Positions 37,429-63,666 of a stretch of 64,000 bases of DNA are shown here, one piece after another; positions within the stretch are counted from its first letter, which is position 1, and each line of letters starts with the position of its first letter. The notes beneath the pieces are model-generated. The model saw only the letters and a list, made by a program, of their open reading frames with translations. It was not told the origin of the DNA and made no database searches. Origin of the DNA: Buxus sempervirens (taxonomy: Eukaryota; Streptophyta; Magnoliopsida; Buxales; Buxaceae); contig OX387187.1 in assembly GCA_947561395.2 (NCBI GenBank), positions 40,591,829 to 40,655,828 of the forward strand, given 5' to 3'. Made by a program: the position numbers and the translations under genes.

Positions 37429-37570
37429 GTATCCGGCAACTCAGGCCGGATACAAGCAGGCCTCTTCGTATTCGGTGACAAGTACCGGATACAAGCAGTG
37501 CTTAGTGTATCCGGTATTCTATACCGGATACCTTAAGGCCCTTGTGTATCCGGTCTGACATACCGGATAC
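37429..37570. promoter_or_regulatory. Palindrome cluster 1 (LTR), 4 units at 39-bp steps
   Basis: Units of 25 bases, GTATCCGG-N9-CCGGATAC, start at 37429, 37468, 37507 and 37546. Three have perfect 8-base arms; the second has GTATTCGG on the left. Spacers are 14 bases. The cluster lies in the U3 part, about 155 bases before the LTR TATA box. Confidence 0.9.
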
Positions 37571-37725
37571 ATAAGTTTTGCTCAAAATTAGGGTTTTCTG
37601 AGAGAAATCACTTGTTACCATCATGTCCCTCATTTAATGAGGGGAAATATCGGAAACAACCCTAGGGTTAAGGTTGGGGGGTTCTAGACATTAAGTTGTG
37701 TCTACCAATGACCTTAGCCTTTGCC

Positions 37726-37733
37726 TATAAATA
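37726..37733 (+). promoter_or_regulatory. LTR TATA box
   Basis: TATAAATA in 'ttgcctataaatagg', conserved at 60106-60113 in the related solo LTR. Confidence 0.75.
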
Positions 37734-39627
37734 GGTGTCTCCTCTTCAAGCAAATGGCCAAGTTTTGGAGATCGAAGAACTTCGAGTGAAGAAGGGAACC
37801 GCTGCCGGATTGCTTCCAGAACCCCAGGTAAGCCTCAACCCTCATTTATTTTCTCTATTTAATTTATTAGATCTAGATCTCTTCTTCTACCTTTCTGTAG
37901 AATAAAGCCTCTTTTTGTGTGTGGAAATCCTTCCCCGGCTCAAAGTATCTCAAGACTCCCGCTAGCCGTAAAACGTGAAGGCGGGATCTAGGAGAAACGA
38001 GACTGGGGATTGACCCTAGTGCTAAAACCCATGTAGCATAAGGCTTTTTGAATGATTGAAAACCGTTCTATAATCAAAGTACCCTTGATTATCTCGAAGA
38101 ATCGTGTTTAACGGGGAGAGAGAACAGAGGGAAACGATAATGGAACGGAACCCTAGGCTATTTTAGAACCTCATTTTGATGGAGATATATGCATGCTATG
38201 TTGTTCTATTGATCTTATATGGTTTCTCACATTTGCACATACATAGCACCGTTTTGACGGGATAGGCTCATATTTGGGGTTTATTACATTCATTGTGATA
38301 AATCTCAAATAAATGGCCTCAATCAAATTCTGGAATGTTTTAAATGTTTTTCAAAAGTTTTACATTCATCTCACACGAATCTCACACACTTGATCACAGT
38401 TTTGAGTCGGTTTTACTCAAAAGTGGCCTAACTGGACAGCACCTGTACCCTTACTTCAGACGCTCATAACTTCATCGTCCGAATGAATTTTGGAGCGATT
38501 CTAGAACCATAGGAAAGGTGAGGCAGTCTAGTTTATGTCTACCAAATTTCATAAATTTCTATCAAACGGATTTTTGACACCTTTCAGTCGAAGTTGAGTG
38601 GACAGTTCAGGTTCAAATACAGAACTTGTCACTTCGACGGAGCGTCATGTGTTCGTTTTAAGTCAGATTCGAGTGATTTTTGTTTCTGAGTACTCCCTTA
38701 TGAGTCTATTTTCAAATCCAGTTGGTTTCATAATTTTTGGATTCCATTTGAATTATTGGTAGCCGATTTATTCAGAACTGTTCATTTGTACTTTTCTGGG
38801 TAAATCTGTGATCTTCGGGGCCTGTTCGGGAGACCACCCAAGGCACATCCGAAGGGATTTTTATATGAGGCTAGTTTCTTTTGAAATATGGCCATACAGA
38901 CTTCAATCACACCAAATTTCGTGGATTTTTATGGAGTGGAGTTTTCTATGCAATTTCCCAAAGTTGCCCACTTATCACTTTTAAAAATCCCGAGCAGCAA
39001 CTTCAAAGGAGCATAACTCCTAGGATTTTTATCAGAATGAAGTGAAATTTTGCATGAGACCCTTATTTACTATAATCTTTCAAATGGATTTGGTTTGATT
39101 TGATTTAAAATTATATTTGGATGATTTCAAGACAAATGGCATGACTTTTCACCGAATTCTCCGGATTTGATTCAACTTGGTTTTTGAATAACTTGTACTT
39201 TGATTTCCATCTTTTTGTGATATTCCAGAAATGATATTGACATAAGAGAGGATCTAGAATCCATTTAGATCTTCACGTGAAAATATCATACATTGGTCAT
39301 TTTTCAAGGTTTTCTATGATTTTAGCAAGCTTTCTTATTTTTGCATGAACATACACTTGGCTACCACTTCGTGTGGATGAATGGGGGTGCCTAACACCTT
39401 CCCCCGTTCATAATCTAATCCCCTTACCCATCTCTGGATTTGATTTTCAAGTAGGGTTATTTTTTATCCTAGAATGTTTCTTTTGTCTCTTGTTTTGCTT
39501 ATTTTTTATCCTTTGGTGTCCATTCTCACCCCAAAATTATGAATGGTGGCGACTCTCCTATTTTTGCGTTGAGCCCGTATGTTGATGGAGGGATGATCAT
39601 TCCGGTGATTTTTCCATGTCTCACAAC

Positions 39628-39645
39628 TGGTGACTCTGCTGGGGA
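39628..39645 (+). other. Primer-binding site
   Basis: TGGTGACTCTGCTGGGGA begins with TGG two bases after the LTR end, as required for pairing with a tRNA 3' CCA end. PBS sequences of this kind are found in Tat/Ogre elements; the tRNA species was not verified. Confidence 0.75.
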
Positions 39646-41151
39646 TGTGTGGATTTAAGCCATTTTTTTGTATATTCATGCTTTTTACTTACTTTTGAAG
39701 GCTTGCTATTTGTTTATTTTGCTTGTGTATGTTGAATTTCAAATTTAATGTGTATGATTAGAAAGTTCACATGTATAAAGGCATGGGCATGTTGCTTGAT
39801 TTTTGCTTAAAGGAAAAACCCATATTGTTATATGACTTTGCTATATTATGTGATTAGCATATGTTATTTTGGGGTTTCAATGCCATGAGCTAAAAAAATA
39901 AAATAAAATATATACAATATGTGAAATCTGGATTTTGTGTTTCTCTTGGGTATTCAAGCATGTTTCCCATGAATAAAGCTATTTTCTTGCTTAATGTTTG
40001 TTTTATGCCATGTTTTGGATTTGGGGGTATATGATGACATGATTTGAGCATGAAAACAATGGGCAAAAATCTGTAAATACAGTAGCCATTAGGATGGTTT
40101 TCAAGCATGTTTTCCCTCATTAAAACACTTTTGTATCATGTCAAGTAGTTGCTAAATTTTTAGGCATTAATTTGGGGTATAAGGGAAGCACTTTTGAGCA
40201 TGAAAATTCTGGAAATTTTAGTGTATATTTGGGGGATTTCAAGCATGTTTTATCTCATTGAAACACTTTTGAACCATGGCAAGTAGTGCTAAAATTTTAG
40301 GCTCCAATTTGGGTAGAAACGGTACACTTTGAGCATGAAAAAGAGCATGAAATCTGGAATTTTAGGAATGCTTTTGGGTTTCAAGCATGCTTACATGAGT
40401 TAATTGTTTTTTGTACAAATATCATGTTTTGTATACTACTTTTTGGGCATGTAGTATTTTTTGTGCATATTTAGTTGTTTTGGTGCTTGCTTGCTTGTAT
40501 TTAGCTTCATTATTTTGTCATATATGCCTTGGCTTGGGATGAATGCATGGCTACGAAAAAGAGTGGCAAGGGGCTGGGACGTTGTGAATGTTACCACAAT
40601 TTTAAATTGCACTTGAGCGCTTGAAACGATTTGCACAGCCTACCCTTTACCTATTAGGAAGTTGAACCATGAATGTGTATAGCGTGGCACACCGAGGTCG
40701 TGACTTCGGAAAGCGAAAGTGAAAACATTTACCTTAGAATCTGGGTCAATGATGTGATGACAATGGGATCTGTGATTCGATTCCGGGCATCACTAGACTT
40801 GAGTTCTAAGTTGCCAATTAAGCCAAAACCCAAAAACCATACGCTTGAAGGTGGAGAAACACATTTTCAACTAAAAGCACACAATTGCGTTTGGGGAATT
40901 GGGTGTAAATGTGGAAAGGCCGTTTGCATGTTTTACAGGCCAAGGTATAATATGAATACCATATTGAATGAAGGTAATACAAGGTGGCAAGGTAAAGCCA
41001 TGTTCTTTTCCTAAATTTGGGGAATTTTGCAAGTATGATGTCCAAGCCCAATTTGGGGCAAGTTTTGAAGGTCAAGATAAGGTGAACACCAAGTGGGAAT
41101 GAAAAAAAACAAACCCGGTGAAAAAAAAGAGTCAAAATGGCCATTTCGGCA
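39646..41151 (+). other. Element leader, noncoding, with diverged repeats
   Basis: Between the PBS and cluster 2. From about 39930 to 40400 a unit of roughly 130 bases with 'tttcaagcatgttt', 'cacttttga' and 'gagcatgaaaa' recurs three to four times. The frame at 40673-41014 has no recognised domain. Confidence 0.55.
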
Positions 41152-41293
41152 GTAACCGGCAACTCAGGCCGGTTACGAATAACCTTGTGCATATCCGGTA
41201 TATAATGCCGGATACAAAGGGCTATGCGTGTATCCGGTCATTGTGACCGGATACGTTAAGCCATACCCTTATCCGGTCATTAATGCCGGATAC
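41152..41293. promoter_or_regulatory. Palindrome cluster 2 (leader), 4 units at 39-bp steps
   Basis: Units start at 41152, 41191, 41230 and 41269. The first has changed arms on both sides, GTAACCGG and CCGGTTAC, so pairing is kept by a compensating change. The third is perfect; the second and fourth differ only in the outermost base. No TATA box is apparent next to it on either strand. Confidence 0.9.
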
Positions 41294-41584
41294 ATGCAGA
41301 AACTCAATAAATTGGCTTTTTCAGCCCGAATTTTCAGAATAAAAATGCCTAAACACTGTGTATAATCCTTAGGCACCCCAAAGAAAATATAAAAATGTGA
41401 AAAAAAAATAAAATAAAACAAATAAAAAAAATGTATATTCATTTAGGATTAAACCTAAGGTTGAAACTCAAAGAATGAGCTAAGGTGTCATTTTTTTTTA
41501 CATCAATTCAATTCAAACATGTGTCAATCAAGCTTTAGAACTTGAAAATCATCTAAAATGCATCAAATTTCAAAAAAATAAAAC

Positions 41585-43210
41585 CCTTGATTGGTCTCCT
41601 TTTTACCAATCAAATCAAATCAAAAATTGGGACCTTGGAAGCCCTAAAATATTCCATAAAAACCCTTGGTTGGTCTCCTTTTTACCAATCAAGTCAAAAA
41701 AAGTGGGACCTCTGCAACCCTAGAATATTCCACGAACCCTTGATTGGTCTCCTTTTTACCAATCAAGTCAAAAAAAAGTGGGACCTCTGGAAGCCCTAGA
41801 ATATTCCATGAACCCTTGATTGGTCTCCTTCTTACCAATCAAATCAAATCAAAAATTGGGACCTTTGGAAGCCCTAAAATATTCCATAAAAACTCTTGAT
41901 TGGTCTCCTTTTTATCAATCAAGTAAAAAAAAGTGGGACCTCTGGAAGCCCTAGAATATTCCATGAACCCTTGATTGGTCTCCTTTTTACCAATCAAATC
42001 AAATAAAAAATTGGGACCCTTGGAAGCCCTAAAATATTCCATAAAAAACCCTTGATTGGTCTCCTCTTTACCAATCAAGTCAAAAAAAAGTGGGACCTCT
42101 AGAAGCCCTAGAATATTCCATGAACCCTTGATTGGTCTCCTTTTTACCAATCAAATCAAATCAAAAATTGGGACCCTTGGAAGCCCTAAAATATTCCATA
42201 AAAACCCTTGAGTGGTCTCCTTTTTACCAATCAAGTCAAAAAAAGTGGGACCTATGGAAGCCCTAGAATATTCCATGAACCCTTGATTGGTCTCCTTTTT
42301 ACCAATCAAATCAAATCAAAAATTGGGACCCTTGGAAGCCCTAAAATATTCCATAAAAACCCTTGATTGGTCTCCTTTTTACCAATCAAGTCAAAAAAAG
42401 TGGGACCTCTGGAAGCCCTAGAATATTCCATGAACCCTTGATTGGTCTCCTTTTTACCAATCAAATCAAATCAAAAATTGGGACCCTTGGAAGCCCTAAA
42501 ATATTCCATAAAAACCCTTGATTGGTCTCCTCTTTACCAATCAAGTCAAAAAAAGTGGGACCTCTGGAAGCCCTAGAATATTCCATGAACCCTTGATTGG
42601 TCTCCTTTTTACCAATCAAATCAAATCAAAAATTGGGACCCTTGGAAGCCCTAAAATATTCCATAAAAACCCTTGATTGGTGTCCTTTTTACCAATCAAG
42701 TCAAAAAAAGTGGGACCTCTAGAAGCCCTAGAATATTCCATGAACCCTTGATTGGTCTCCTTTTTACCAATCAAATCAAATCAAAAATTGGGACCTTTGC
42801 AAGCCCTAAAATATTCCATAAAAACCCTTGATTGGTCTCCTTTTTACCAATCAAGTCACAAAAAAGTGGGACCTCTGGAAGCCCTAGAATATTCCATAAA
42901 AACCCTTGATTGGTCTCCTTTTTACCAATCAAATCAAATCAAAAATTGGGACCCTTGGAAGCCCTATTATATTCCCTATTAACCCTTGATTGGTCTCCTT
43001 TTTACCAATCAAGTCAAAAAAAGTGGGACCTCTGGAAGCCCTAGAATATTCCATGAACCCTTGATTGGTCTCCTTTTTACCAATCAAATCAAATCAAAAA
43101 TTGGGACCCTTGGAAGCCCTAAAATATTCCATAAAAACCCTTGGTTTGTCTCCTTTTTATCAATCAAGTCAAAAAAAAAGTGGGACCTCTGGAAGCCCTA
43201 GAATATTCCA
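41585..43210. repeat. CCAAT-dyad satellite, dimeric higher-order repeat
   Basis: About 21 monomers of 75-80 bases, each with TTGATTGG-N11-CCAATCAA. Two monomer types mostly alternate: one with 'aaatcaaatcaaaaattgggaccc' and 'aaaatattccataaaa', the other with 'aagtcaaaaaaagtgggacctct' and 'agaatattccatgaa'. This makes a dimer of about 156 bases. The array sits in the element leader, between cluster 2 and gag. Confidence 0.93.
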
Positions 43211-43378
43211 AAACAAAAAAAACAAAAAAAACAAAAAAAACAAAAAAAACAAAAAAAACAAAAAAAACAAAAAAAACAAAAAAAACAAAAAAAACAAAAA
43301 AAACAAAAAAACAAAAAAAAAAAAAACAAAAAAAAACAAAAAAAACCAAAAAAACCAAAAAAACAAAAAGAAAAAAAA
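43211..43378. repeat. (CAAAAAAA)n simple repeat
   Basis: A-rich run with C every eight bases, decaying into longer A runs. The frames through it are artefacts. Confidence 0.95.
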
Positions 43379-43544
43379 ATCTGGATTGGTGTTCACCTAA
43401 CCTACTGGTTTACATGTATAGGGGCGTGACTCAAGTTAAATGGAAGCTAACATGTTCTGTTCATTTTTTTCCCCAGGTACATTTACTTGCAACCCAAGTA
43501 CACTTGCAATCATTGCTCCAGTAACCAGATCTAAAGCCCGCACC

Positions 43545-43919: not shown

Positions 43920-44039
43920 TGTAAGCACCTCATTTTTGCGCTCCTAGAAAAACCAGAAATGCAAACCCTGGACAGAAAGTCAAACCCTAAGGGGTGAAAA
44001 GTTGACTTTTTGATCAAATGAAATTGGCCACCTTGCTTT

Positions 44040-46255: not shown

Positions 46256-47306
46256 GGTCCAAAACAGGCCGAATTGTTATTTTTTTTGAAAATTCCAAAA
46301 ATACCCTTGGACCCAGCACAATGAGCCAGTTTTTTTTCTGACAGAGTGTCCATCTTGTGTTTTTTTGGTAATTATTGCTAGATGTGAATGCCATTTACGA
46401 ACCGAACCAAATAAACCAATAGGGTTTCTGGGCCCCCGGTCCAACTTGACTTCCAGTGGGCCTTCCAACGGGGCCCACCCAGCCCAATAAACACCAAAGC
46501 ATGCCATTAAATAACTTAAGTAAAATGAACAATTTGAACTGGGCGGGCCAAACCCAATGCGGCCCACCCGAGACCAAGGGCAAGGGCCTACCGGGCCCGC
46601 CAAAGCCCACCAACCAAACCAAGGAAGGGTGCAAACCCTAATTTCTGGTAACTTGGGCTTACAAGCCCAGATTTGGACTACGGGCCCCAAGCCCAGTGTC
46701 CAGCTCACTTTGGCAGATTAAAAAGATAAATCTAATAAAAATACTTGGCCACCATGTGGGCCCACCTTAGGGGCCCACAAACCAGTCCGGCCCACTTGTG
46801 CATGAAAAACACTTAATCTTCAAAGCTTAACTTAAAGTAAAATATGTTGAACTAACCAAAGCCCAAAAGACCTCTCAGGCTAGACTGAGGTCCACAAGGG
46901 TACACGGGCTTCACTAAGCCCACCAAGGATACCGTGGGCCTTCCAACAGGGCCCACCCAACCAGACCCAGATCACCTAATTAAACAAGATAAAAGCAATT
47001 AAAGGGACCCACACCACTCAGGTGGTCCCGCCAGACTTAACCAAACTGCATATCGGATTAGGAATCGGGTGAGACCAATGGAAGCTGACTCAAACCAGGG
47101 AACCCACGGGACCCGTCATCCGACGGGGTGGACCGGGGTGTCTACGAACTTCCCCAGACCACAACCGAGAACAGACTTAGAATCTCAAGCCGCAGACCGA
47201 AAGCCCTAATAGACAGGATTAGGCACCCAGGTGTCCGCCTGCACCCCATCAGGCGGTGGCGACTCCGAATTACCCCGTGCCGAGTTTCCCACCCGCGCAC
47301 AGCAGC

Positions 47307-48610
47307 CATGGAGGCACCACCTTTGAAGATCTGTGCATGTATCCTGACATATGTCTACCGGCCAAGTTCAGGTGCCCGAACTTCGACAAATTTGATGGCA
47401 CGGGCTGCCCATTGAGCCACTTGAAGTTATACTGCGGGGCCTTGTGCCAATTTGGCCGGGATGACGGCATACTGATCCAACTCTTCCAAAGGAGTCTGAC
47501 CGGGTCAGCTCTTCGGTGGTTCGCTACAGTGGACCACGGAAGGATCAGGAGGTGGAAGGACCTAGCCGATGCCTTCTTAGACCAATATAAATTTAACTCT
47601 GAGATCGTGCCAGACCGGTACGACATGATGAGGATGAACAAGGGGAAAGATGAGCAGGTACGACAGTACGCCAAGAGGTGGAGAGAGGCCGCCTCTCAGG
47701 TTAGGCCACCTATGCAAGAGCCGGAGATGATCTCCACATTCATGGGCACACTGGGGCAGCCCTTCTACAACCATTTGGTGGGCCAGATCACCACCAACTT
47801 TGTAGCCCTGGTACAAGTGGCAGACCGGATCGAAGAAGGGGTCAGGTCAGGAAGGCTGATAGACTATTCTACTCTGACTGGGCAGTCTGATTCCTCTGCC
47901 TCCATGGCCCAGAAGAAAGGGGCTGGATTCAAGAAGACAGGGGCTCGAAAAGAAGGGGAGGTGAACCTGGTCTAGGCTCCTCCAGCCAAGAAGCCACTTC
48001 ATGTGAACATCTCAGCACCCCAACAGGCCCAGCAGGCCCAGCAATCGTACCAAACCTCGCTGAATGTCAATTTCACCCCCTCCGTACCAGCTAACCCAAG
48101 GAGGACCTTTACCAGGGAGGAAAGAGAGGCCTGGTTAGCAAATAGAAAGAACCGGGTTTTCACTCCTCTCCCAATATCTCTTTCCCAACTGCTGCCAACT
48201 TTGCTGAAGGGTGAATACCTGACTCGGAAAGAGCCCAACCCGAATGCCACCAGGGGAAGAAATTTTGACACGTCGGTCACCTGTGACTTCCACATGGGTG
48301 CACCGGGGCATTCTACAGATACCTGCTGGGTATTGAAGCATGCGGTCCAGGACTTGTTGGAACAGAAGGCCTTAGTGTTCAACACTGCTGCACCGGCCCC
48401 GTCCGGAAATGATATTGGGCAGAACCCTCTGCCGTACCACAATGGGGAAGGCCCATCCAACTCCATCACTACCATATCCACCACGAGAAGGGCCTTTGAC
48501 CCATCTCAGCTTATAGCACCCGTGGGGACTACAGTCCAAGTCCATTTCTTCCAAGAGGAGGAGAAGGAGGAGGAGATCAACATGGTCTCCCAAAAAAAAC
48601 AATACAGCTG
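47307..48610 (+). pseudogene. gag: gag, central and C-terminal part
   Basis: Continues in frame after the solo LTR: HGGTTFEDLCMYPDICLPAK, then the retrotransposon gag core (LYCGALCQFGRDDGILIQLF, SLTGSALRWFATVDHGRIRR, DAFLDQYKFNSEIVPDRYDM, VRQYAKRWREAASQVRPP). A TAG at 47973-47975 interrupts the frame, which stays open again to 48614. A zinc-knuckle-like stretch (CDFHMGAPGHSTDTCWVLKH) follows, as in Tat/Ogre elements. The A8 run at about 48591 causes a frame change. Functional only if the stop were suppressed and the shift corrected. Confidence 0.88.
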
Positions 48611-49960: not shown

Positions 49961-50012
49961 TGGAGAAATACCACTTTCACCCGGGAAAGGCCTGGGGATC
50001 AATCTGCAGGGG

Positions 50013-50639
50013 ATGGTGGAGCCAATCACGGCTAAGAAACTGATCCCCAAGGTAGGGTTGGGCTTCAAGCCCAGAGGCTGGAGAAGAATGAAACATGAAG
50101 AAGGGGAGAGCAGAAGCAAAGGAAAACTCCTGCATCTGAGGGTGAACTTTCCAAAACCCTCCTATATAATCCAAATTTCTCCTCCCATGGACCAGTCCAA
50201 GCCTCCATACCACAACCTCAACCCATTTCAAAAGCCTTTTGTTTCAGCTCTACAACCCTATAACCCATCTCCAATATTGGGAGCAGCAGATGGGCCTGGG
50301 CCACAGCCCGAGCAGCAGGTGGACTTTTCTGAAGATGTTGGTGCATTCTTCGCCATGACTGAGGGCGAAAAGACAGGGGCAGACATGGAACTGCCGTTTA
50401 TTGACTGGGCCGCAGTAAAGATTCCGGAAGAGGTCCTTTCTGGATTGGGCCCCGTAGCAGAAAAGGGCAGTACCCACCCAGTGATGATGGCATCGGATGC
50501 TGGGCTTGAGGAGCAGGCTTTCCCTATTTCCCCTGCTCCCCAAAATTTTGTACTGAACAATTGGGAGGAAACTCCCCTTACCTTTGAAGCAGCGTCTGTG
50601 TGGCAAACTGACGCGGCTTCCAAAAAAAAACTCCAATAG
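50013..50639 (+). pseudogene. pro-RT linker
   Basis: Open stretch with GKGLGINLQGM-like lead-in, GLGFKPRGWRRMKHEEGESR, then proline-rich and acidic low complexity (VDFSEDVGAFFAMTEGEKTG). No enzyme domain. The frame passes into the RT segment through the A9 run at 50620-50628. Confidence 0.7.
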
Positions 50640-52138
50640 TGGAATGCCATTTCCCTGAAGGTTCTAATGGGCCTTCGTCTTCAGGGGAATTATGTTTAGA
50701 AGGCCCACAAAAAACCCAAAAAGATTTTTCTATTTTTGCTAGAAAATTTAAATTTTTCAAAAAGGTCCAAACCACTTATGAACCATATAATCAGACCGAA
50801 TTGGACCAGGTTGAATATGACTTCGACCTTGAGCTCGACTGTGATCTCATGGGGGTCGAAGAAGAGACCGAGGTCGAAGAAGAAGATGTTCCAAAAGAAA
50901 TTGAATACCAATTAGAACGTCATGAAAATGGGGTCCAACCTAATATTGAGGAGACCATATCCATAAATCTTGGGACCGAAGAGGACCCAAAAATTGTGAA
51001 AATCGGGTCATGCTTGTCTGATGTGCAGAAAAATGAAATGTCACAGTTCTTGGCAGATTACAAGGATGTGTTTGCTTGGTCGTATCGGGACATGCCGAGG
51101 TTGGACACTGACATGGTGGTGCACAAGTTGCCAATTTTGCCAGGGGTTAAGCCGATTAAGCAGAAGCTAAGAAGATTGAAGCCAGAATGGACCTTGAAGG
51201 TCAAGGACGAAGTGGTCAAACAATTTCAAGCCGGATTTTTGGCAGTCTCTACGTACCCTGAGTGGTTCGCAAACATAGTGCCGGTACCAAAGAAGGACGG
51301 GAAAGTCAGAATGTGCGTGGACTACAGAGATTTGAATAAGGCAAGCCCAAAAGACGATTTTCCGCTTCCACACATCGACATTCTGGTCGATAATACTGTG
51401 GTACATAGCCTATTCTCCTTCATGGATGGCTTCTCAGGATATAATCAGATCAAGATGGCTAAGGAAGATCAAGAAAAAACAGCATTTATCACACCTTGGG
51501 GCACATTCCACTATACAGTCATGCCATTTGGGCTCAAGAACGCTGGGGCAACATATCAGCGGGCCATGACAGCACTATTTCTTGACATGATCCACAAAGA
51601 GATGGAGGTCTATGTGGACGATATGATTGCCAAATCATGCAAAGAGGAGGACCACTTGATCAACCTGAAGAAAGTGTTTGATCGTCTCAGGAAGTACAGT
51701 TTACGGCTTAACCCGGCTAAATGCGTCTTTGGGGCTACATCAGGGAAGTTACTGGGGTTTATAGTTAGCCGAAGAGGAATTGAAATTGACCCGGCAAAAG
51801 CCAAGGCCATAATTGAAATGCCAGCACCCAGAACCGAGAAGGAGGTTCGTGGTTTTCTCGGGAGGATTCAATACATAAGCCGGTTCATAGCACAGCTCAC
51901 TGCTATCTGTGAACCAATTTTCAAACTTTTGAGGAAAGATAACCTGACGGTCTGGAATGACGACTGCCAGCAGGCATTTGACACAATAAAGAAGTATTTG
52001 CTGAACCCACCTGTGCTAGTGCCACCAACTCCAGGAAGACCACTGATCCTGTACTTGTCAGTGTTGGAAACATCGATGGGATGCGTCTTGGGGCAGCATG
52101 ATGAGACTGGTAGAAAAGAAAGGGCCATTTCTATCTGA
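50639..52138 (+). CDS. pol: Gypsy reverse transcriptase, open segment
   Basis: Single open segment of 499 codons; it has no start of its own and is part of a polyprotein. RT motifs in order: KQKLRRLKPEW, WFANIVPVPKKDGKVRMCVD, YRDLNKASPKDDFPLPHID, FMDGFSGYNQIKMAKEDQEK, FITPWGTFHYTVMPFGLKNA, and the catalytic YVDDMI, intact. It continues through LGFIVSRRGIEIDPAKAKAI and GFLGRIQYISRFIAQLT to the start of the first RNase H, ending at a frame shift at about 52125. RT copies element RNA into DNA in cytoplasmic particles. Confidence 0.93.
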   Translation: MECHFPEGSNGPSSSGELCLEGPQKTQKDFSIFARKFKFFKKVQTTYEPYNQTELDQVEYDFDLELDCDLMGVEEETEVEEEDVPKEIEYQLERHENGVQPNIEETISINLGTEEDPKIVKIGSCLSDVQKNEMSQFLADYKDVFAWSYRDMPRLDTDMVVHKLPILPGVKPIKQKLRRLKPEWTLKVKDEVVKQFQAGFLAVSTYPEWFANIVPVPKKDGKVRMCVDYRDLNKASPKDDFPLPHIDILVDNTVVHSLFSFMDGFSGYNQIKMAKEDQEKTAFITPWGTFHYTVMPFGLKNAGATYQRAMTALFLDMIHKEMEVYVDDMIAKSCKEEDHLINLKKVFDRLRKYSLRLNPAKCVFGATSGKLLGFIVSRRGIEIDPAKAKAIIEMPAPRTEKEVRGFLGRIQYISRFIAQLTAICEPIFKLLRKDNLTVWNDDCQQAFDTIKKYLLNPPVLVPPTPGRPLILYLSVLETSMGCVLGQHDETGRKERAISI

Positions 52139-52431
52139 GTAAAAAATTCACAGAATATGAAGCCAAGTACTCACCATTGGAAAAAACTTGCTGTGCTCTA
52201 GTGTGGGCCACTCAGAGGCTAAGGCATTACTTCCTTAGTCACTCCACACTATTGATATCCCGGATGGACCCGCTGAAGTATTTATTTGAGAAACCGGCAC
52301 TGACTGGCAGGACGGCAAAGTAGTAACTACTACTGTCCGAGTTTGACCTCACGTACATCACCCAGAAGGCGATAAAGGGGCAAGCCATAGCTGATCACCT
52401 GGCTGCACATCCTCTGCCAGAATATCAACCC
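52139..52431 (+). pseudogene. First (Gypsy-type) RNase H, degenerate
   Basis: Reading on after the frame shift gives YLSKKFTEYEAKYSPLEKTC, RLRHYFLSHSTLLISRMDPL, then two consecutive stops (TAG TAA at 52321-52326) and FDLTYITQKAIKGQAIADHL. The arrangement, a decayed RNase H followed by a second one, is a Tat-lineage hallmark. Confidence 0.8.
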
Positions 52432-54225
52432 TTGAAGACCAACTTCCCAGATGAGGCAATCCTATACACTGAAGAGGAGGACAGTGACAGTTCTTGGCAG
52501 ATGTTCTTTGATGGGGCCGCCAATATGAATGGGAACGGAATAGGGGCAGTCTTGGTTAAACCAGATGGTTCACATATCCCAATTGCAATAAAGCTGAGAT
52601 TCCAGTGCACCAATAACATAGCAGAATATGAGGCATGCATAATTGGATTGCAAGCAGCCATGGATCATGGAGTAGAGGAACTTGACGTATACGGGGATTC
52701 GAGTCTTATCATCTTCCAAACAACTGGTGAGTGGAAAACCAAGGATCACAAATTGATCCCCTATCACCAGTATTTGGAAGAAATAAGCACAAATTTCACT
52801 CGAATTTCCTTCAACTATATGCCAAGGGCCAAGAATCAGTTTGCGGATGCTCTAGCAACCTTGGCTTCAATGGTCAGCATACCAGAAGGAGTAGACATCA
52901 GACCGCTGGAAATTGAGGTTAGAGATGAACCGGCTTACTGTCTCGTTCTAGAGGGAGCACCAAAAGAAGAAGCACCGTGGTTTCGAGATATCAAAAATTT
53001 TTTGAACAATCGGAGTCTGCCAGAAAATGCCACTGCTACTGAGAAGAGAACAATACAGAGGTTGGCAGGTCAGTTTCTGCTAAGTGGTGGACATGTGTAC
53101 AAAAGGTCGCATAACGACATTCTGCTCAGATGTGTAGCCAAGACGGAATCGGAAAGACTGATTGAAACTGTACATGGAGGAGTTTGTGGGCCCCATATGA
53201 GTGGGCACATGTTGGCAAAGAAGATCTTGAGATTGGGCTACTACTGGACGACAATGGAGCATGATTGCTGTATACATGTCAGAAGGTGCCACCAATGTCA
53301 GATATATGCAGATAATAAGCATGCACCCTCGGGTGAGTTACACAACATGACATCCCCATGGCCCTTCTCTATGTGGGGCATAGATGTTATTGGCATGATT
53401 TCACATAAGGCATCGAACGGGCACAGATTCATCCTGGTGGCGATTGACTACTTCACTAAATGGGTAGAGGTAGCTTCATATGCAAACATCACAAGCAACC
53501 ATGTTATTAAGTTTTTGAAGCACAATATCATTTGTCGCTATGGACTTCCTAGTGCCATAGTATCAGACAATGCTTCAAATATTAAGAACAAGGACATGAA
53601 GAAAATGTGTGAGCAGTTTCAGATCACCCACCACAAGTCAGCTCCGTACAGGCCAAAGATGAATGGGGCAGTGGAAGCAGCAAACAAGAACATAAAGAAA
53701 ATCATCCAGAAGATGGTAGTGAGCTACAAGGATTGGCATGAAATGCTGCCACTTGCTCTACATGCCTACAGAACCTCGATTCGGACCTCAACCGGGGCAA
53801 CCCCGTATTCCCTAGTCTATGGGATGGAAGCAGTCTTGCCAGTGGAAGTAGAAATCCCATCACTCAGAGTGCTCATGGAAGCTGAACTGGAAGAAGCCGA
53901 ATGGGTACAGTCAAGACATGATCAACTCAACCTGATAGAAGAAAAGCGGTTAAAAGCACTATGTCATGGCCAGTTGTACCAAAGGAGAATGGCCCGGGCC
54001 TACAATAAGAAAGTGAGGTCCAGAACTTTCCAGGAAGGAAACTTAGTGCTAAAGAAAATCTTACCATTTTTTGGAAGACCCTCGTGGTAAGTTCAAGCCC
54101 AATTGGGAAGGGCCATATGTCGTCAAGAAGGTCCTGTCAGGGGGTGCACTCATCTTAGCAGAAATGGATGGGTCAGATTTTCCTGAGCCAATTAACTCCG
54201 ATGCAGTAAAAAGGTATTTTCCTTG
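52432..54225 (+). CDS. pol: Archaeal-type RNase H and integrase, open segment
   Basis: RNase H: WQMFFDGAANMNGNGIGAVL, NIAEYEACIIGLQAAM, DVYGDSSLI, NQFADALATLASM; all four acidic positions are present. Integrase: zinc region HGGVCGPHMSGH and CHQCQIYAD, then the DDE core WGIDVIG, IVSDNASN and NGAVEAANKN, all intact. The frame ends at 54090 because of one extra T in the T6 run near 54066; without it the chain reads on through GKFKPNWEGPYVV to AVKRYFP and TGA at 54225. No chromodomain follows. Integrase inserts the DNA copy into the genome. Confidence 0.92.
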
Positions 54226-55168: not shown

Positions 55169-56891
55169 CTAGTCTCTGTCTCCTAGCCGCTCCTCAAGCT
55201 CCCAAATCCGAGCTGCCTGAGCTGCAATGACTCCTGAAGCCCCCTCTGCAGAGGGATCACTCAAGAAGGAAATGACCTCATCTGAAAGGGCCTGCCTGAT
55301 CCGCATACTCCTAAGGCTGGCCAAAGTATCCTGGTACTTCTGCCGGATCATATGGACCTCGAAGCGACGGGCCTGCCTCTGCTCCTCCAGCTTCTCTTCC
55401 ACGGCAGTACGGCGTGAGATCTGCTCCTCAAGCTGCCTCTCCAGATAAATGCCCTGTATCCTGAGCTCCTGGGCCTCCCGTACCCATATCTGCTGAAGCC
55501 GCTTATGAGAAGCCCGCTCAGACTTTAGAATGTCCTCATAGGTGGGAGCCAAGACTACAGGAGGATCTTCGGGTACCGGGGCCTGAGTCTGTATCTGCTC
55601 CTTGATCCAAAAGAGATAATCCTTCACATGGGCTTCTGAGAAGATTGGACCATGCATGAAGCGAACATAGGACCACTCCTTCATCAACCAGGCATTCAGC
55701 TTCATAGAAAGGGGCCCAAGACGATCCTCATATCCACATGGGATGATAATCCCCTGGGTCGCACGGAACTGACGAAGGACCCACAGAGGAAGATACAACA
55801 CTGCATGCTTCAGGCCCGCTAGGATCAGAAAGTTGCGGTCACGGAAGCTAATCACTGTCTCTGCATTGGGCTGATAAGTGCCAGGCCATCTCACCTGGTC
55901 CTCCTGAAGTGAGCCCAAGAAAGTGAACCAACCCTGTTTGCCCCCTGGAATATCGGGGCACCCCCTGTTGCTCATCAAGAAGGGGACTTTCAGACTCGGG
56001 AAGAAGTGTCGATTGATTTCTTCAATCTGGTTCAAATGATCAAGTAGCCAAAGCTGCAAAGGAAGAGAGATATGTCAGCACATTGCAAAAAAATAAAAAA
56101 ACAAAAAAGCAAGAAAAAAGCAAAAAAGGCAAAAAGAAAGCCAAAAAGCAAAAAAAAAAAAGAAATTAAAAAAAAATTTTTACCTGCAGGATCTGGGCAC
56201 ATGCTAGGAAGCGTTTCGACTTCCTATTGTAACAGTCAGTCAAGGCTTGATACATCCCAGCCAAAATCATAGGGGCCAACCTCTCCCGCTCCCTAACCTG
56301 GCATATCACTGAGATCAAGGCCAAGTCCACCTCGTCATCCTCCCGTGGGAAAAGTAACTGGTTGACCACAATCAGGGTCAAGGCGTTGAACCAGGCCTCC
56401 TTATTTTCCCCCCTCAAAAGCTTCTCAGTCAAAAAAGCCTTAGATAGGGTCAAAAGGGTGTCAGAATCCCCTAAATCCTTCTTCCCTATGCCCAAGAATG
56501 TAGAAGCTTCTTTTTTGTAACTGGGCCTAAGAGGTGGATTCACCACCTTCTCATCAAACCTCAAGCCCAGGATGGTTTCCACCTCCTCAATGGTTGGGGT
56601 CATTTCATGGGTCCCAAAACGGAAAAGGTTGAGGTCGGGTACCCAATGACCAATCATGGCCTCTATAATCTCCCACTTGAAGGGAACCTTGGGAATAAGC
56701 AGGGTGTGGCCTAGATTAGTAGTATCCCATCTCCTCTCCTCATCTAGGGTCATAGAGTTAACCCACCTTGTGTAAAAGGAATCCACAGGGTTGTACCTAG
56801 TGAGATTTGGGGGTTTTGATCTGAAAGGTTGTTTTGCAGGGGAGGCAGTGTAGACAGACAGTAATGGGGCAGAAAATGATCCGGATTCCAT
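55169..56891 (-). CDS. Antisense DUF7745 protein, two exons, intact
   Basis: Exon 1 56891-56184 and exon 2 56053-55169 join across a 130-base intron (donor CAG-GTAAAA, acceptor 'ctttgcag') into 530 residues without stops. Start chosen at MESGSFSAPL; an upstream in-frame ATG at 56984 would add a hydrophobic run and lies nearly at the TATA box. Domain DUF7745 spans about residues 45-420: FKWEIIEAMIGHWVPDLNLF, TPTIEEVETILGLRF, VVNQLLFPREDDEVDLALI, GWFTFLGSLQEDQVRW, YLPLWVLRQFRATQGI. A coiled coil with Glu/Arg/Gln follows (about 435-525). DUF7745 proteins accompany plant-mobile-domain-like proteins in plant repeats; function unknown. It lies head to tail behind the PMD gene. Confidence 0.85.
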
Positions 56892-57000
56892 TGGATGTGA
56901 TGGGAGCAAGCTAGAACTCAAGAGAAGGAAGAAAAAGGCGAAAAAGGGGGTTTCTAAACTCAAAAACTCGTAAAAAATGCTCAAATCCCGAGGCTGGTTG

Positions 57001-57008
57001 CATTTATA
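57001..57008 (-). promoter_or_regulatory. TATA box of the antisense DUF7745 gene
   Basis: Minus strand reads GCTATAAATGC, 110 bases upstream of the chosen ATG and 12 bases downstream (gene sense) of palindrome cluster 3. Confidence 0.75.
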
Positions 57009-57020
57009 GCATCTTTTAAT

Positions 57021-57162
57021 GTATCCGATAACTCAGACCGGATACAAAAGGCTTTATTAATATCCGGTTAAGTATACCGGATACAAAAGAGGCCATGAGT
57101 AGCCGGTATGTTATACCGGATACAAAGACCAATCAATGTATCCGGTATATCAGACCGGATAC
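57021..57162. promoter_or_regulatory. Palindrome cluster 3 (DUF7745 promoter), 4 units
   Basis: Units start at 57021, 57060, 57099 and 57138, exactly 39 bases apart. The last is perfect; the others carry one arm mismatch each. The unit next to the TATA box has the core TAACTCAGA, like the first units of clusters 1, 2 and 5. Confidence 0.9.
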
Positions 57163-59807
57163 AAAGAAAAAATGCAAAAAAAAAGAGCTAAGGATGAAAA
57201 ATCCGAATTTTTTACCTGTTTTACCTGTGTACAAGTCATAATTGCATAAAATTAAAAACAAAAGATGTGCAAGACAAGAGAGAATGAATCAAAGCTTTTT
57301 TTCATATATATATGTAAGTTTTTTGTACAATGATGATGGAAAAGACATAAAAATCCTAATCTACTACTCTTGTGCAGGATCATCCCCGCGCCCTCTACCA
57401 CGCGCTCTACGGCCTCTCCCTCGAGACGGTCGGCGCCTATAATAGGACAGGAGGCGCTCCGCCATATAGCGCGGTCTCCGTCCTATGAAGGACTGAAGCT
57501 GGTACTCGACGCAGTAATCCGACGTGTCGGGAGAAGGGACAGGAACAGAATCGGAGGAAGCCTCGGGCTCAGCAGGTACGGGCTCAACTGGACCCTCAGC
57601 TACAACAGTCTCTGCTCCCGCATGTCCAGAAGGCCCAGCAGCAGAAGAAGGGCCAGGAGCAGAAATGTCTGTGCCAAATGGAGAAAAATCAGGAATTGAG
57701 AGACTAAGATGAACAAAAGAGAAGAAGCTAAGGAAAACATACCAGGGATATCTACAGCAGGCACTAGGGGATCCGGATCCACCGGGTCAGCAGCAGGGAC
57801 CTCCTCCGGCTCAGGAACCATCACTGGAGATGAAGGAACAGCCGGGGCATCCGCAGAAGCAGCTGGGGCATCAGTAGGTGGAACATCACCAGGATCAGCA
57901 GCTGGGACATCCATAGGATCCGTAGCCCGAGCAGGAGACGGGTCAGGAATGAGGAAATCATGCTCGAAGGCAACATCCTGATCTGGGACCGAGCCCTGCA
58001 CAAGTCAAACAAGCATATCAGAATATCAGAAACAGGAAAATGAAAGAAACGAAAATATAAGAAGGCCAGATACCTGTCTAGCCTGGAGCTCAGCAACCAA
58101 GGCCTCCAGCTCCCTGATCCGGGCATCCTGCTGGGCCAAGACCGCATCATGCTCAGAGATCATATCATCGATCGCGGCCCGCTGGCTCTCGAACCGGTCC
58201 CGAATGATGTTCAGCTCGTGTACCTGCCAACAAGAACAGAAGTAGGGTCAGAAATACATAAGGGAAGAAAAGATGAAGATATGAAAAGTACAAGACTTAC
58301 TGTGTCCTCATGAATCCGGATACGGATCCCGCCGATCTCTGTCTCCCCGGCACGAGTGGGTCGATCCATCAAGCATCCTATAGATACCCGCTGGAACCAC
58401 TCGTCGTAATCTCCAGCTACTGTGAGCCCCTCTGCATCCAGGAAGTGATCAAACTGATCAACATCAAAGCCTGGGAGGAGTGTGTCGGGACCCACAGGAG
58501 GAGGAGGGACGGGGATGCGAAGTGCGCCAGTGTGCTGGAAGTACAGGCGCTCTCCCAAGTACATCACCCTACCAAGCCTCCCAAGGAAGCACTGGTAGGG
58601 CTGACGTCGTCGATCTCTATCGAAGGCATCCTGTACCGCCATCTCACGGGCCACTCCGACGTCCACGTCATCAAATCGAGACAGGAGGAGCTGCAAAAAA
58701 GAGAAATAATCAGGTACAGTCAAGATACAGAAAAAGAAATAAAAAGGAAAAAGGATAAAAGGTTTACATCAGGTCGGCGGGCACGGTCCAAGTGCACCCG
58801 AGCGGTGCAGGGCTGACTCCTATCAGCATCCCGGACCTGGGCCGACCATCGCAAAGCCACTGGGAAATCTGCGACCTCAGGTACCGGGGATGGGCGGAAG
58901 AAAGTCATGTAGGTGTACATGAACACCTGGCAAAAGAAAAATCGGTCAGGAAAAGATAAAGCCTAAAGAGTTAAACCAAATAGATGAATTCAATACCTGT
59001 AGAATCTGCCAGAAAAACCGGCTGCTGACTCCATCGCCTCTCGGAGATGCTAAGCCTCGAACCGCTCGGCACAGCCCGGCCAGGATGGTCCCATAGATGA
59101 GTCGGCCCCATGCCAGCTGACGGGTCTGACGAAGATCTCTCAAAGCGTCCAAGAAAAGTGGGCTGACACCGGTGGTATCCTCCGGGAAAAAAGCAGCTCA
59201 CAAGCATCAACAAGAAAACATGCCGGAAGATAGGCACAAAATCTGCATCCTCCACGGAGATGGTCACATGTCTCCCGTCGTAATGACGAGCCAGGCTCTC
59301 TCGCAGCCAGCTGATGGAAAGACGACCACTCCGCCCATCCCAAGCAGCAGGTGGCAAGGCCGGATATCCCAGAAGGAGGCCAATGTCCTCCGCAGAAGGT
59401 CGCTCCAAGACAATGGTCCGCCCCGTCAAGGGAATACCGGTGATCATCACAAAATCTGAGGGGCGGATCCCTAGCTCCACGTCCGGAAGATGGAATGACT
59501 GGGTCTCCGGGAAATATCTCTCCATCATGGCGAAGATGAGCGGACGATCGGCTCTGAAGGATGGGATGCTAAGGAAGTGGTCCAGATGACACCTCCCAAA
59601 CTCCCGCCTGAGTGCCAGGGAAAGCGACTGAGCTAACTCACTAAATCTCCCCCAACTACCCCGCAGATGGGAAGAATAATATGGAAGCGGCACATCTGCC
59701 CTGATGCACATAGAGGGTGTAGACACCCCAAATTGCACAAACAATCATCAAAAATCATTATCTCCTGGAAAGCCAGCACAGAATTTGAAGAAAATAAACT
59801 TTTACCT

Positions 59808-59949
59808 GTATCCGGATTGAGTATCCGGATGCAAGTATCCTTTCCCGTATCCGGATACTCATACCGGATACATGTGAGCCTTAGCGTATCCGGTACCATG
59901 TACCGGATACCTTAAGGCCCTTTGTTATCCGGTCTGATATACCGGATAC
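59808..59949. promoter_or_regulatory. Palindrome cluster 4 (solo LTR), 4 units
   Basis: Units start at 59808, 59847, 59886 and 59925, again 39 bases apart. The second and third are perfect; the first ends CCGGATGC and the fourth differs in the outermost base. Confidence 0.9.
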
Positions 59950-60105
59950 CTTAAGTTTGCTCAAAATTAGGGTTTTCCGAGAGCTTTTCACTTTTACCAC
60001 CATGTCCCTCATTAAATGAGGGGAAATCACGGAAATAACCTTAGGGTTTAGGTTGGAGGGGTTCTAGACATTAATTTGTGTCTACCAATGACCTTAGCCC
60101 TTGCC

Positions 60106-60113
60106 TATAAATA
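60106..60113 (+). promoter_or_regulatory. TATA box of the solo LTR
   Basis: TATAAATA, at the same place as in the 5' LTR. Confidence 0.7.
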
Positions 60114-62414
60114 GGAGCCTCCTCCTTGAGCAAAGACACACAACTCTTGTTTTGAATTCTCGCAAAGAAGAACTCCAAGAGAAGAAGAAAACCGCTGTGG
60201 AATCGCCTCCAGCACTCAGGTAAGCCTCAACTTTTCTTTTTATTTTCTGTCTTTACATTCCTAGATCTAGATCTCTTCTTCTACCTTTCTGTAGTGTAAA
60301 GCCTTGTTTGTATGTGTGGAAATCCTTCCCCGACTCAAAGTATCTCAAGACTCCCCTAACCGTAAAACGTGAAGGCGGATCTAGAAGAAACGAGACTGGG
60401 GATTGACCCTAGTGCTAGAACCTATGTAGCATAAGGCCTTTTGGATTGATTGTAAACCGTTCCATATTCAAAGTACCCTTGATTATCTTAAAGAGAACAG
60501 AGGGAAACGATAATGGAACGGAACCCTAGGCTATGCTAGAACCTATTTTGTTGAATCTATATGCATGTTGTATTGATCTTGTTTGGGTTTTTACACTTGC
60601 ACATACATATCATTATTTTGGCGGGATAGGTTCATATTTGGGGTTTATTGCATTTATTGTGATAAAACTCCAATAAATGGCCTCAATCAAATTCTGGAGT
60701 GTTTTTAAATGTTTTTCAAAGGTTTTGGATTCATCTCACACGAATCACACACTTTTTGTCAATTTTCGGATTTGGTTTTCTTCAAGAGTGGCTTAACTTG
60801 ACAGCACCTGTACCCTTACTTCGGACGCCCATAACTTCATCATCCGGATGAATTTTGGGGTGATTCTAGAACCGTGGGAAAGGTGAGGCCGTCTAGTTTA
60901 TGTCCACCAAATTTCATGAATTTTGATCTAGCGGATTTTTGACACCTCTCTGTCGAAGTTGAGTGGACAGTTCAGGTTCAAGTACAGAACTTGTCACTTC
61001 GACGGACCGCCATGTGTTCGTTTTAAGTCCGATTCAAGTGATTTTTATTTCTGAGTACTCCTTTTTGAGTCTATTTTCAAATCCAGTTGGTTTCATAATT
61101 TTTGGATTCCATTTGAATTATTGGTAGCCGATTTACTCAGAACTGCTCATTTGCATTTTTCTGGGTAAATCTGTGATCTTCGGGGCCTGTTCGGGAGACC
61201 ACCCAAGGCACATCCGAAGGGATTTTTGTATGAGGCTAGTTTCTGTTGAAAGATGGCCATATAGACTTCAATCACACCAAATTTCGTGGACTTTTATGTA
61301 GTGGAGTTTTCTAGACAATTTTCCAAAGTTGCCCACTTACCACTTTTAAAACTCCCCAGCAGCAACTTCAAAGGAGCGTAACTCCTAGATTTTTCATCGG
61401 AATGAAGTGAAATTTTGCATGAGACTCTTATTTACCCTAATCTTTCAAATGGATTTGGTTTGGTTCAATTTAGAATTGGATTTGAATGATTTCAAGGCAA
61501 ATAGCATACTTTTTACCGAATTTGATTTAACTTGGTTTGGAGCAACTTGTGCTTTGATTTCCACCTCTTTAATGTTCCAGAAATGATATTGACATAAAAT
61601 GAGAACCCAAAATTCATTTGGATTCTCATGTGAAGATATCATACATTTGACCTTTTTTCAAAGTTTCTCATGATTTTTAGCAAGCTTTCTTACTTTGTTT
61701 TCGCATGAACATACACTTGGCAACCACTTCGTGTGGATGAATGGGGGTGCCTAACACCTTCCCCCGTTCATAATCTAATCCCCTTACCCATCTCTGGATT
61801 TGATTTTCAAGTAGGATTATTTTTATCCTAGAATGTTTCTTTTGTCTCTTTTTTTCTTATTTTTGAATCTTTTGGTGTCCATTCTCACCCCAAAATCATG
61901 AATGGTGGCGACTCTCCCAATTTTTGCGTTGAGCCCGTGTGTTGACGGAGGGATGATCACTCCGGTGATTTTTTCCCATGTCTCACAGAGGGGTGGCTAT
62001 CCAAGCCACGGAGGAGCTCTGTATCATGCATAGAGGCCCTCAACTCCTCAGAGACCCCTGCCAGAGCTACAGCAGTACCCTCCTGAGCTACACCTCCGGC
62101 TCTGCCTCGGCCTCGACCATGGCCTCTCTCGTCCTCAAGGGCCTGACCCTGAACTCTGCCTCTGCCTCAGCCTCGACCCCGAGCCGGTGCAACCACGGGC
62201 TAAATTTAAAGAGAAAGGTGTGAGGATTGGTGTAGGAAAAGAATAAAAGGCGGAAAAGAAGAACTGGAAAGCCTACCTCGGCAGAGCTCTCCCTGGAGAC
62301 ATCTAATGGCTCAGACAAGGTAGCGCTGGAGCTCGCCTCTGTCCGAGCCCGCGAACTAGAGGGCTGATCAGCAGGGTCAGCCTCCTCTCTAACTCGGGAA
62401 CGACTCCTAGCCAT

Positions 62415-63265
62415 CTACACAGGGAAGTGTTTTATGAATTTCAGTTTAAATTTATGAAATTTTTCTTTGCTTATAGTTCCCGTTCAGTTTTACATGATTT
62501 TTCCAGATCATCGTGAATCGTGCCCGAGGGTATTTTATCTGTTTCAGGCCAAAGTATTAGAAAATGTTTGGTATTTTTGTCCAATTAACAAGATATTCTA
62601 TTTCTAAGATATTTCTGTAAAGCTTAATATTTTCTTAATTTGCTTTCAGGGTTACCAGACGTAATCAGAAAAACAATGTGCAGAGCAAAGTCCATTCAAG
62701 AACAAATAATGGATGCATCGCCTCTATTGGAAAAGTGTTAAAGTGAAAAGTCCAAGCGGGTTGCAAAAAGAAAAAAAAATCCAGCATGCAATTAACAGTT
62801 CCATAAGTACCATCGGCAGGCAGTCCTAAGGATTGCACAAGCCACAATTATATAAGCAGCTCCAAGAAGTGGCAAGATAAAATTAAAAGTCAAAGAAAAT
62901 TTCAGAAAAACAGAAAAAATCATGGCATTAAGTCTGAGAATTCTATCATAGGCTATATGGGAAATCATGCCAGGAGCAATGCAGTTGTGAATCAGCACTA
63001 ACAAGGAATCCAAACCAGTTGCAGGGATTATCAGAAATACAAAACTATAGTTCTCGGTATACAGTGGGAAGTCAAACATACCAAAGAGGAAATTTTCCAA
63101 TTACCAATAAGGTTTGCTCGGAGAGATGAACTGCTGGTTAACCAAGGACAAATCCAATCAACAATAATCCAACATGATCAGAGCAAAAACATGCTTGGAT
63201 TCAATGGAATTATGCAAGAAAAAGAGAAAAAAAAAACATGCTTGACTGGGTCGGATTGCCCTTAC
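62415..63265 (-). other. Predicted 5'-leader intron of the PMD gene
   Basis: On the minus strand a donor (CAACCA-GTAAGG, gt at 63265) and an acceptor ('cttccctgtgtag') directly before the ATG at 62414 bound an 851-base AT-rich stretch with no coding content. Large leader introns next to the ATG are common in highly expressed plant genes. This is inference from splice signals only. Confidence 0.5.
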
Positions 63266-63587
63266 TGGTTGAGCAGCAAAGAAGGGAATCGGGTTGGTGA
63301 AGAATCAGTCACAGGCAATCACCGGAGATCAACACCCCACACTGAGTTGATAAAGTCGTCGGAAATCAAAAAAATTTGAAGAAAGCCGAGCTAGGGCTCA
63401 GTCGCGGCAATGAGGGAAGGTCGCCGGAATCGCAGAGTGTCGCCGGCAGCAATAGGAGACGCCGGAGCTATTGGATGTCGCCCGAAAAGAAGGACGAGTC
63501 GTCGGGTGTCGAAGGAAAGAAGAGAGTAGCCGGTCTTTGTAATCGGGGAAGAAAGAAGAGAAGGGGAAAAGTCGCGGTCGCGCGCGA
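63266..63587 (-). other. Probable transcribed 5' leader exon of the PMD gene
   Basis: GC-rich, pyrimidine-biased on the minus strand ('ctcttctttcttcccc', 'tccggcgacc'), directly downstream of the TATA box and upstream of the leader-intron donor. The plus-strand frame at 63376-63594 is the shadow of this leader. Confidence 0.5.
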
Positions 63588-63588
63588 C

Positions 63589-63596
63589 TTATAAAA
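63589..63596 (-). promoter_or_regulatory. TATA box of the antisense PMD gene
   Basis: Minus strand reads AGCTTTTATAAGTCGCG, six bases downstream (gene sense) of palindrome cluster 5. Confidence 0.65.
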
Positions 63597-63602
63597 GCTT
63601 GG

Positions 63603-63666
63603 GTATCCGGTCACTCAGACCGGATACAAGCGAGTGCATGCTTATCCGGATACACATACCGGATAC
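63603..63666. promoter_or_regulatory. Palindrome cluster 5 (PMD promoter), 2 units
   Basis: Units start at 63603 and 63642, 39 bases apart. The first is perfect with core TCACTCAGA, the second differs only in the outermost base. A-rich simple sequence follows where further units would be expected. Confidence 0.9.

Follow-up and report, generated by a model that had tools for sequence, protein, structure and literature searches.

Phased palindromic arrays as a candidate cis-regulatory module in a Tat/Ogre-type retroelement of Buxus sempervirens

Palindromic repeated motifs (RM) with a CGG-CCG core, the core being present in 12 of 13 elements, are reported from the Sireviruses, a group of Ty1/copia retroelements, in which they cluster in the long terminal repeat (LTR) upstream of the TATA box and recur before the ENV gene; on comparison with other Ty1/copia elements they were called Sirevirus-specific (Bousios et al. 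2010, PMC2829016). Here, we analyze arrays of similar design in a 64,000-nucleotide stretch of the Buxus sempervirens genome (contig OX387187.1, hereafter the window), which holds a Ty3/gypsy retroelement of apparent Tat/Ogre type with two antisense genes, A and B. These arrays probably constitute a phased, dyad-symmetric cis-regulatory module that is located at the LTR promoter, at the gene A promoter, before gene B and in the 5' leader.

Like the Sirevirus RM, the arrays have a CGG...CCG core, here within TATCCGG-N9-CCGGATA, are clustered in the LTR before the TATA box (at 155-156 bp in 17 of 18 cases, and at 11 bp in an LTR of a second type, L031) and occur in extra copies before additional genes, here antisense genes A and B. 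The RM given for a Citrus Sirevirus, AATCCGGCTWRCCGGATT, has ATCCGG/CCGGAT in common with the units described here. In contrast to the RM, the arms of these units are farther apart (N9) and their step is fixed at 39 bp, a fixed step that the accessible part of PMC2829016 was not found to state; antisense genes, too, are preceded by arrays, those at gene A being 11-12 bp away from its TATA box, and one array is placed in the leader. Their host is a Ty3/gypsy element in which reverse transcriptase (RT) and RNase H precede integrase and a second RNase H is present, making it similar in working to the Sireviruses but not a member of them. The first-pass annotation of this DNA knew of no such module in Tat/Ogre elements, and no description of palindromic arrays in these elements was found in the literature searched, a search that is weak for the sequence letters GTATCCGG, CCGGATAC and TATCCGGATA; the kind itself, however, has its precedent in what is available of the Sirevirus account (PMC2829016), so that the arrays represent a variant from a different superfamily and not a kind of their own. 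As far as the literature searched shows, three aspects are new: the strict 39-bp phase, the arrays at antisense genes, which at gene A keep a constant distance to the TATA box, and the support for selection from comparison of copies.

Repeated boxes upstream of a TATA box, in a genome with an antisense gene, are also familiar from an animal retrovirus, HTLV-1, whose U3 region carries Tax-responsive 21-bp repeats, although this serves as an analogy only. The VANC motifs of VANDAL elements resemble the arrays in being short, tandem, fast-evolving and placed in non-coding parts, and their reader, VANC, is encoded by the element, as reported in the portion available of PMC5735166; VANDAL is a DNA transposon with a demonstrated reader protein, and the string 'palindrom' is absent from the main text of that report. 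Retand, like the element analyzed here, belongs to the Tat lineage and has antisense open reading frames (ORFs) between pol and the 3' LTR, tandem arrays and a proposed regulatory role, but its antisense ORFs carry a TRP28 domain instead of DUF7745 or PMD, and no palindromic arrays were found described in the accessible text, where the string 'palindrom' comes up twice, both times within the title of a reference (PMC11963269). The DOWN motif of MAIN/MAIL1/PP7L targets likewise ties PMD proteins to a promoter motif, although, according to the accessible parts of these reports, it concerns host genes and its sequence, CATGCAGTTT, is unrelated to the arrays (PMC7156037, PMC9899485). Because CATGCAGTTT differs from the palindrome units, the DOWN motif was rejected as the same site.

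The window contains all 18 of the 25-bp palindromic units listed in the first-pass annotation, each confirmed at its coordinates, in five clusters (C1 to C5, Table 1) with a step of 39 bp throughout. Thirteen of these units carry the core TATCCGG-N9-CCGGATA without any mismatch. When up to three mismatches are allowed, the window has 19 matches, where shuffled windows average 0.77 and reach 4 at most, so that a chance origin of the units is rejected. The nineteenth match (55327-55349, two mismatches) is solitary, lies within exon 2 of gene A (DUF7745), is not an array and is probably coding sequence; five other elements have a counterpart with 2-3 mismatches at a similar position. The clusters had first been assigned to five places of one retroelement; this assignment was wrong for the cluster at 59808, which sits in the solo LTR of a sibling, leaving four clusters in one element. 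In a wider sample, which yielded 114 distinct units, steps of 39 bp (149 cases) predominate over steps of 38 bp (14), 13 and 26 bp (2 each) and 59 and 103 bp (1 each), such that the exact 39-bp step claimed for each cluster applies to every step in the window, while other copies also use 38 bp. The N9 centre, described in the same annotation as variable, is hypervariable across six elements but not wholly free, as its outermost bases pair in 14 of the 18 window units and 73 of the 114 distinct units.

To the scale of the genome (676.5 Mb scanned, with the reversed motif as control), the exact motif occurs 28,399 times against 5 in the control. From a right arm to the next left arm, the gap of 16 that corresponds to the 39-bp step is found 17,900 times (control 0), while gaps of 1-15 total 443 (control 49), with 42 of 50 listed places representing the 38-bp step, and gaps of 17-21 total 30 (control 35). 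A pattern scan of viral contigs returned seven stretches with one exact unit each and no neighbour at 39 bp, and a second scan returned none. In a scan of genome contigs, two bacterial loci matched and are read as unrelated: one has a single exact unit with a neighbouring half-site (L008), and in the other, a Lachnospiraceae contig (L009:391-510), a 13-bp tandem repeat of TATCCGGATATTT type fits the pattern, which we read as coincidence.

Array position relative to the TATA box is fixed at two of the sites. Among arrays of the window's LTR type in fetched stretches, 17 of 18 lie 155-156 bp before the TATA box and one lies at 167 bp, while the gene A arrays lie 11-12 bp before it in all 26 copies examined, comprising the window, five more elements and 20 copies hand-picked from 150 listed. 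Given this short fixed distance, the gene A arrays would lie upstream of, and hence outside, their mRNA. Genome-wide, CCGGATA-N13-TATAAA is present 1,780 times (876 + 904) against 22 for the reversed control, whereas gaps of 14-22 between the same two motifs add up to 106 (control 247), the counts covering gaps of 13-22. Before gene B, the TATA-like TTTTATAAG seen at C5 was identified by reading in three of six elements.

The arms and the remainder of the arrays have distinct mutational histories. In six elements with both LTRs, we aligned about the first 860 LTR bases and counted 826 ungapped columns. None of the 56 arm columns varies between lineages; the corresponding counts are 20 of 36 for loops, 23 of 42 for spacers, 2 of 8 for the outermost bases and 96 of 684 for the rest. 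Changes that separate the paired LTRs of a single element, and that therefore arose after insertion, number 4 in arms, 1 each in loops, spacers and outermost bases, and 15 in the rest. Thus, given four post-insertion differences and no lineage-variable column, the arms mutate after insertion yet stay unchanged in the lineages that spread. Variability is higher in loops than elsewhere in the LTR (p 2e-8), and among CpG columns alone the variable share is 0 of 16 versus 11 of 40 (p 0.02). At the gene A promoters of 21 copies, the mean pairwise difference ranks these parts in the same way, with 0.027 in arms, 0.135 in loops, 0.184 in spacers and 0.194 at the outermost bases, with 0.087 in the upstream flank, 0.038 in the 5' untranslated region and 0 in the TATA box. 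Units within one element differ by 4-8% in their arms, by 54-60% in their loops and by 66-71% in the 14 bases after each unit, so they are not recent copies of one another. An ordinary minisatellite is rejected on account of this within-element divergence of loops and spacers between alike arms, together with the lineage-invariance of the arms. The initial proposal of selected sites in place of a drifting minisatellite is therefore supported by arms that are conserved across lineages while mutating after insertion, by the genome-wide step and by the fixed TATA distances at the LTR and gene A.

Symmetry within the units was evaluated by comparing matched positions with shuffled columns. Among the 114 distinct units, the pair next to the core (9/17) matches in 73 versus 56 in shuffled columns and pair 4/22 in 110 versus 99, mostly in one lineage, while inner pairs show no matching excess; pair 8/18 co-varies (39 versus 31, p 0.003) in a set of 48 distinct units taken from L031 and L054-L063. 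The double change TAACCGG/CCGGTTA, carried on both arms by the first C2 unit (41152), is found 1,045 times genome-wide and the single change 545 times, against about 58 doubles expected by independence. Entire units are also found inverted: at the homologous place, the first LTR unit reads ATACTCAAT in elements E1 and E2 and ATTGAGTAT in E4 and the solo LTR, and the distal gene A unit reads TCTGATATA in 8 of 21 copies and TATATCAGA in 5 of 21. Such inversions fit a dyad-symmetric reading combined with exchange at the arms.

The first-pass annotation raised the question of whether the arrays are confined to one family. They are not, as they are also carried by a second LTR type, which beyond the arrays themselves has little similarity to that of the window. 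L031, a stretch retrieved by its motif, and nine of ten further places (L054-L062) are of this type, and the remaining one, L063, is a leader array comparable to C2. Seven of the nine LTRs have two units, a gap and three units, with 39-bp steps within each group, and L055 and L061 have fewer units above threshold. Outside the arrays, L054-L063 have little or no match to the window, the exceptions being short stretches in L060 and L061 and the leader array L063. In L031, the TATA box lies 11 bp after the last unit; the 12-13 bp in L054-L063 is a selection effect that adds no evidence on distance, as these places were chosen for an array-TATA match of 12-13 bp among the first 100 listed, plus L061 from a second list, with differing intervening sequence. 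L031 is probably a Tat relative, given its 78% identity over 941 bp to the window's pre-gag region and its weak gag matches, which fall below the Pfam cut-off.

The analysis establishes the anatomy and phasing of the arrays, their association with TATA boxes at the LTR and gene A, and their pattern of conservation. Each unit consists of two inverted TATCCGG half-sites, which one further base on either side extends with less strict pairing, and a variable centre of 7 nt. Most likely, a dimeric DNA-binding protein would occupy each palindrome, with adjacent dimers touching at the 39-bp step, and the array would serve as a proximal promoter or enhancer element through which the promoter for genomic RNA and the antisense accessory genes are switched in concert. 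From the fixed TATA distance, the conserved arms and free centre, the dyad symmetry, the occurrence of both orientations and the fixed step, we infer that these are dimeric sites read in double-stranded DNA by a protein dimer, presumably for activation rather than repression.

Several points weigh against this regulatory interpretation. As 39 bp corresponds to 3.7 helical turns, successive dimers would not be on the same face of the helix, and the constant spacing is partly inherited from ancestral arrays. A TATAWAW scan within 260 bp of seven gene B arrays found none, and only two of seven leader arrays have a TATA box within 260 bp, with no consistent TATA. The Fisher tests of arms versus loops (4e-4) and arms versus rest (6e-4) give optimistic values, because array columns change in linked blocks and independence is overstated, and for CpG columns alone the table of lineage against post-insertion changes is not significant (0:1 versus 11:6, p 0.39). 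Finally, a dimer model does not call for paired changes in the arms, which would suit a hairpin equally.

As to the identity of the reader, we lean slightly toward a host factor over a self-encoded protein, since the second LTR type and the Sireviruses carry similar boxes. Gene A self-regulation may nonetheless stay in play through strong purifying selection and an array at its own promoter. The gene A product matches DUF7745 (E 3e-18) and PMD (E 9e-13) in exon 1, and its dN/dS (nonsynonymous to synonymous substitution) of 0.08-0.09 among three intact copies of six indicates strong purifying selection. A special case of the regulatory module, and one that we consider doubtful, is an element-encoded circuit in which the DUF7745/PMD protein of gene A, gene B or both recognizes the arrays and, much as VANC proteins do, governs both the LTR and its own promoter through trans-activation or anti-silencing. 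In addition to the selection on gene A and the array at its promoter in 26 of 26 copies, this circuit would be in keeping with the requirement for the PMD proteins MAIN and MAIL1 in expressing genes with a promoter motif, as given in the accessible parts of PMC7156037 and PMC9899485, and with the binding of VANC21 to a short motif tandemly repeated in its own element family, as given in that of PMC5735166. However, the Pfam scan of gene A exon 1 returned DUF7745 and PMD only and no known DNA-binding domain, the motif proposed for MAIN/MAIL1, CATGCAGTTT, is different, and similar arrays occur in the second LTR type and in Sireviruses, for which the available part of PMC2829016 mentions no PMD gene. 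It is unlikely that antisense-strand PMD/DUF7745 proteins bind a phased palindromic operator at the LTR, the leader and both accessory genes, for autoregulation or anti-silencing like that of complex retroviruses and VANC; if true, such a self-contained circuit would give PMD proteins, which the host also uses for silencing, a defined DNA target.

The main rival to sites read in double-stranded DNA is that the arrays act in the transcript as RNA hairpins, for example in packaging, stability or small-RNA generation, which we judge quite unlikely. The arrays are predicted to fold strongly as RNA (-81 kcal/mol and z -11 for the 142-nt C1 array; z -9.3 for C2, -8.3 for C3 and -3.9 for C5), although any palindrome folds strongly. 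The matches beyond shuffled columns at pairs 4/22, 9/17 and 8/18 and the excess of doubly changed units over the expected number would suit a hairpin, but the double change belongs mostly to one lineage and to the first unit of the leader array, and a number of the symmetric changes are transitions of CpG type, such as decay would produce. In maize Sireviruses, palindromes of the LTR are described, in the part available of PMC5311732, as variable small-RNA hotspots, a precedent for small-RNA generation; the gene A arrays, in contrast, would by their distance to the TATA box be outside the mRNA that they precede. A functionless origin, in which template switching or gene conversion during reverse transcription keeps tandem palindromes alike, would account for hypervariable loops and spacers that change in blocks and for whole units inverted at the same place by exchange at the arms, but is very unlikely, as exchange leaves the fixed TATA distances unexplained, the arms stay alike even though, across elements, each array position has loops and spacers of its own, and arms that mutate after insertion have no lineage changes.

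The element is classed as Tat/Ogre-type Ty3/gypsy on the basis of domain order, size and general features of this group: its pol domains run RVT_1, RT_RNaseH_2, RVT_3 and rve, with RT-RNase H preceding integrase and a second RNase H present. Dual RNase H is reported across the Tat family, and a G-patch domain in plant LTR elements, in the accessible part of PMC9289625; a G-patch domain (PF01585) is found here at 49911-50636, just before the RT ORF. Just past the window (L033:184-2470) lies the 3' LTR that belongs to the element; it is 97.8% identical to the 5' LTR and has a four-unit cluster whose loops differ by one base from C1, and CTCCT flanks the element outside both ends. The LTR at 59718-61987 was rejected as the element's own 3' LTR because it has GAGGG on both sides, lies inside gene B, and the own 3' LTR is in L033.

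Table 1 Features of the element and its arrays (positions in the window).
Feature	Position	Strand	Remarks
5' LTR, Tat/Ogre-type element	37339..39625	+	blastn self-comparison and versus L033; CTCCT just before
Cluster C1, four 25-bp palindromes	37429..37570	+	in 5' LTR, 155 bp before TATA box
LTR TATA box (TATAAAT)	37726..37732	+	
Putative primer binding site TGGTGACTCTGCTGGGGA	39628..39645	+	read from sequence, directly after 5' LTR
Cluster C2, four palindromes	41152..41293	+	5' leader
gag domain ORF (PF03732)	47223..47972	+	
Two ORFs: RT + RNase H, then second RNase H (RVT_3) + integrase	50612..54087	+	
Gene A, antisense, DUF7745/PMD-related	55169..56891 (approximate)	-	exon 1 56891-56184, exon 2 starting near 56053; single intron, placed by inspection
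Gene A TATA box	57003..57008	-	12 bp after last C3 unit
Cluster C3, four palindromes	57021..57162	-	directly upstream of gene A TATA box
Gene B, antisense PMD gene with introns	57364..62414 (approximate)	-	extent by inspection; split by solo LTR
Sibling solo LTR	59718..61987	+	85.9% to 5' LTR; GAGGG both sides; inserted in gene B
Cluster C4, four palindromes	59808..59949	+	inside solo LTR, 155-156 bp before TATA box
Cluster C5, two palindromes	63603..63666	-	directly upstream of TATA-like TTTTATAAG and gene B

The PMD match of gene B (1.4e-8) has a score of 34.8, just under the Pfam cut-off of 34.9. A search with the gene A protein gave 967 candidates, none at E 0.001 or better, no relatives of RT or gene A were found in viral contigs, and DUF7745 was not found in the literature searched. 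One derivative of the family, about 9.7 kb long (L014/L015, C1:3385807-3395460), has LTR, gene B and leader arrays with no gene A array between them, and is likely a non-autonomous copy that kept the arrays. The 5' leader also contains a tandem array with a 155-bp unit (41580-43216), followed by an A-rich tract at about 43210-43380, both unrelated to the palindromes. A tandem repeat of about 148 bp occupies the pre-gag region (43997-44700) and has an inverted relative, 75-90% alike, at the window's left end (970-1731). Remains of a CACTA-type transposon (Transposase_21, DUF4216) lie on the minus strand at 26674-30050.

The role and expression of antisense genes in giant plant retroelements is described as an open question in the accessible parts of PMC7264820 and PMC11963269. 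In the element analyzed here, the promoters of the LTR and of gene A are marked by a single DNA code that is conserved and can be counted and that also lies before gene B and in the leader; its arrays offer a ready probe for finding the reader protein. The contrast between frozen arms and hypervariable loops further illustrates how selected sites in transposons can be distinguished from minisatellites. Given the likeness of the arrays to the Sirevirus boxes, including the ATCCGG/CCGGAT of Citrus, these findings suggest that Ty3/gypsy and Ty1/copia elements may have converged on, or may share, one class of reader.

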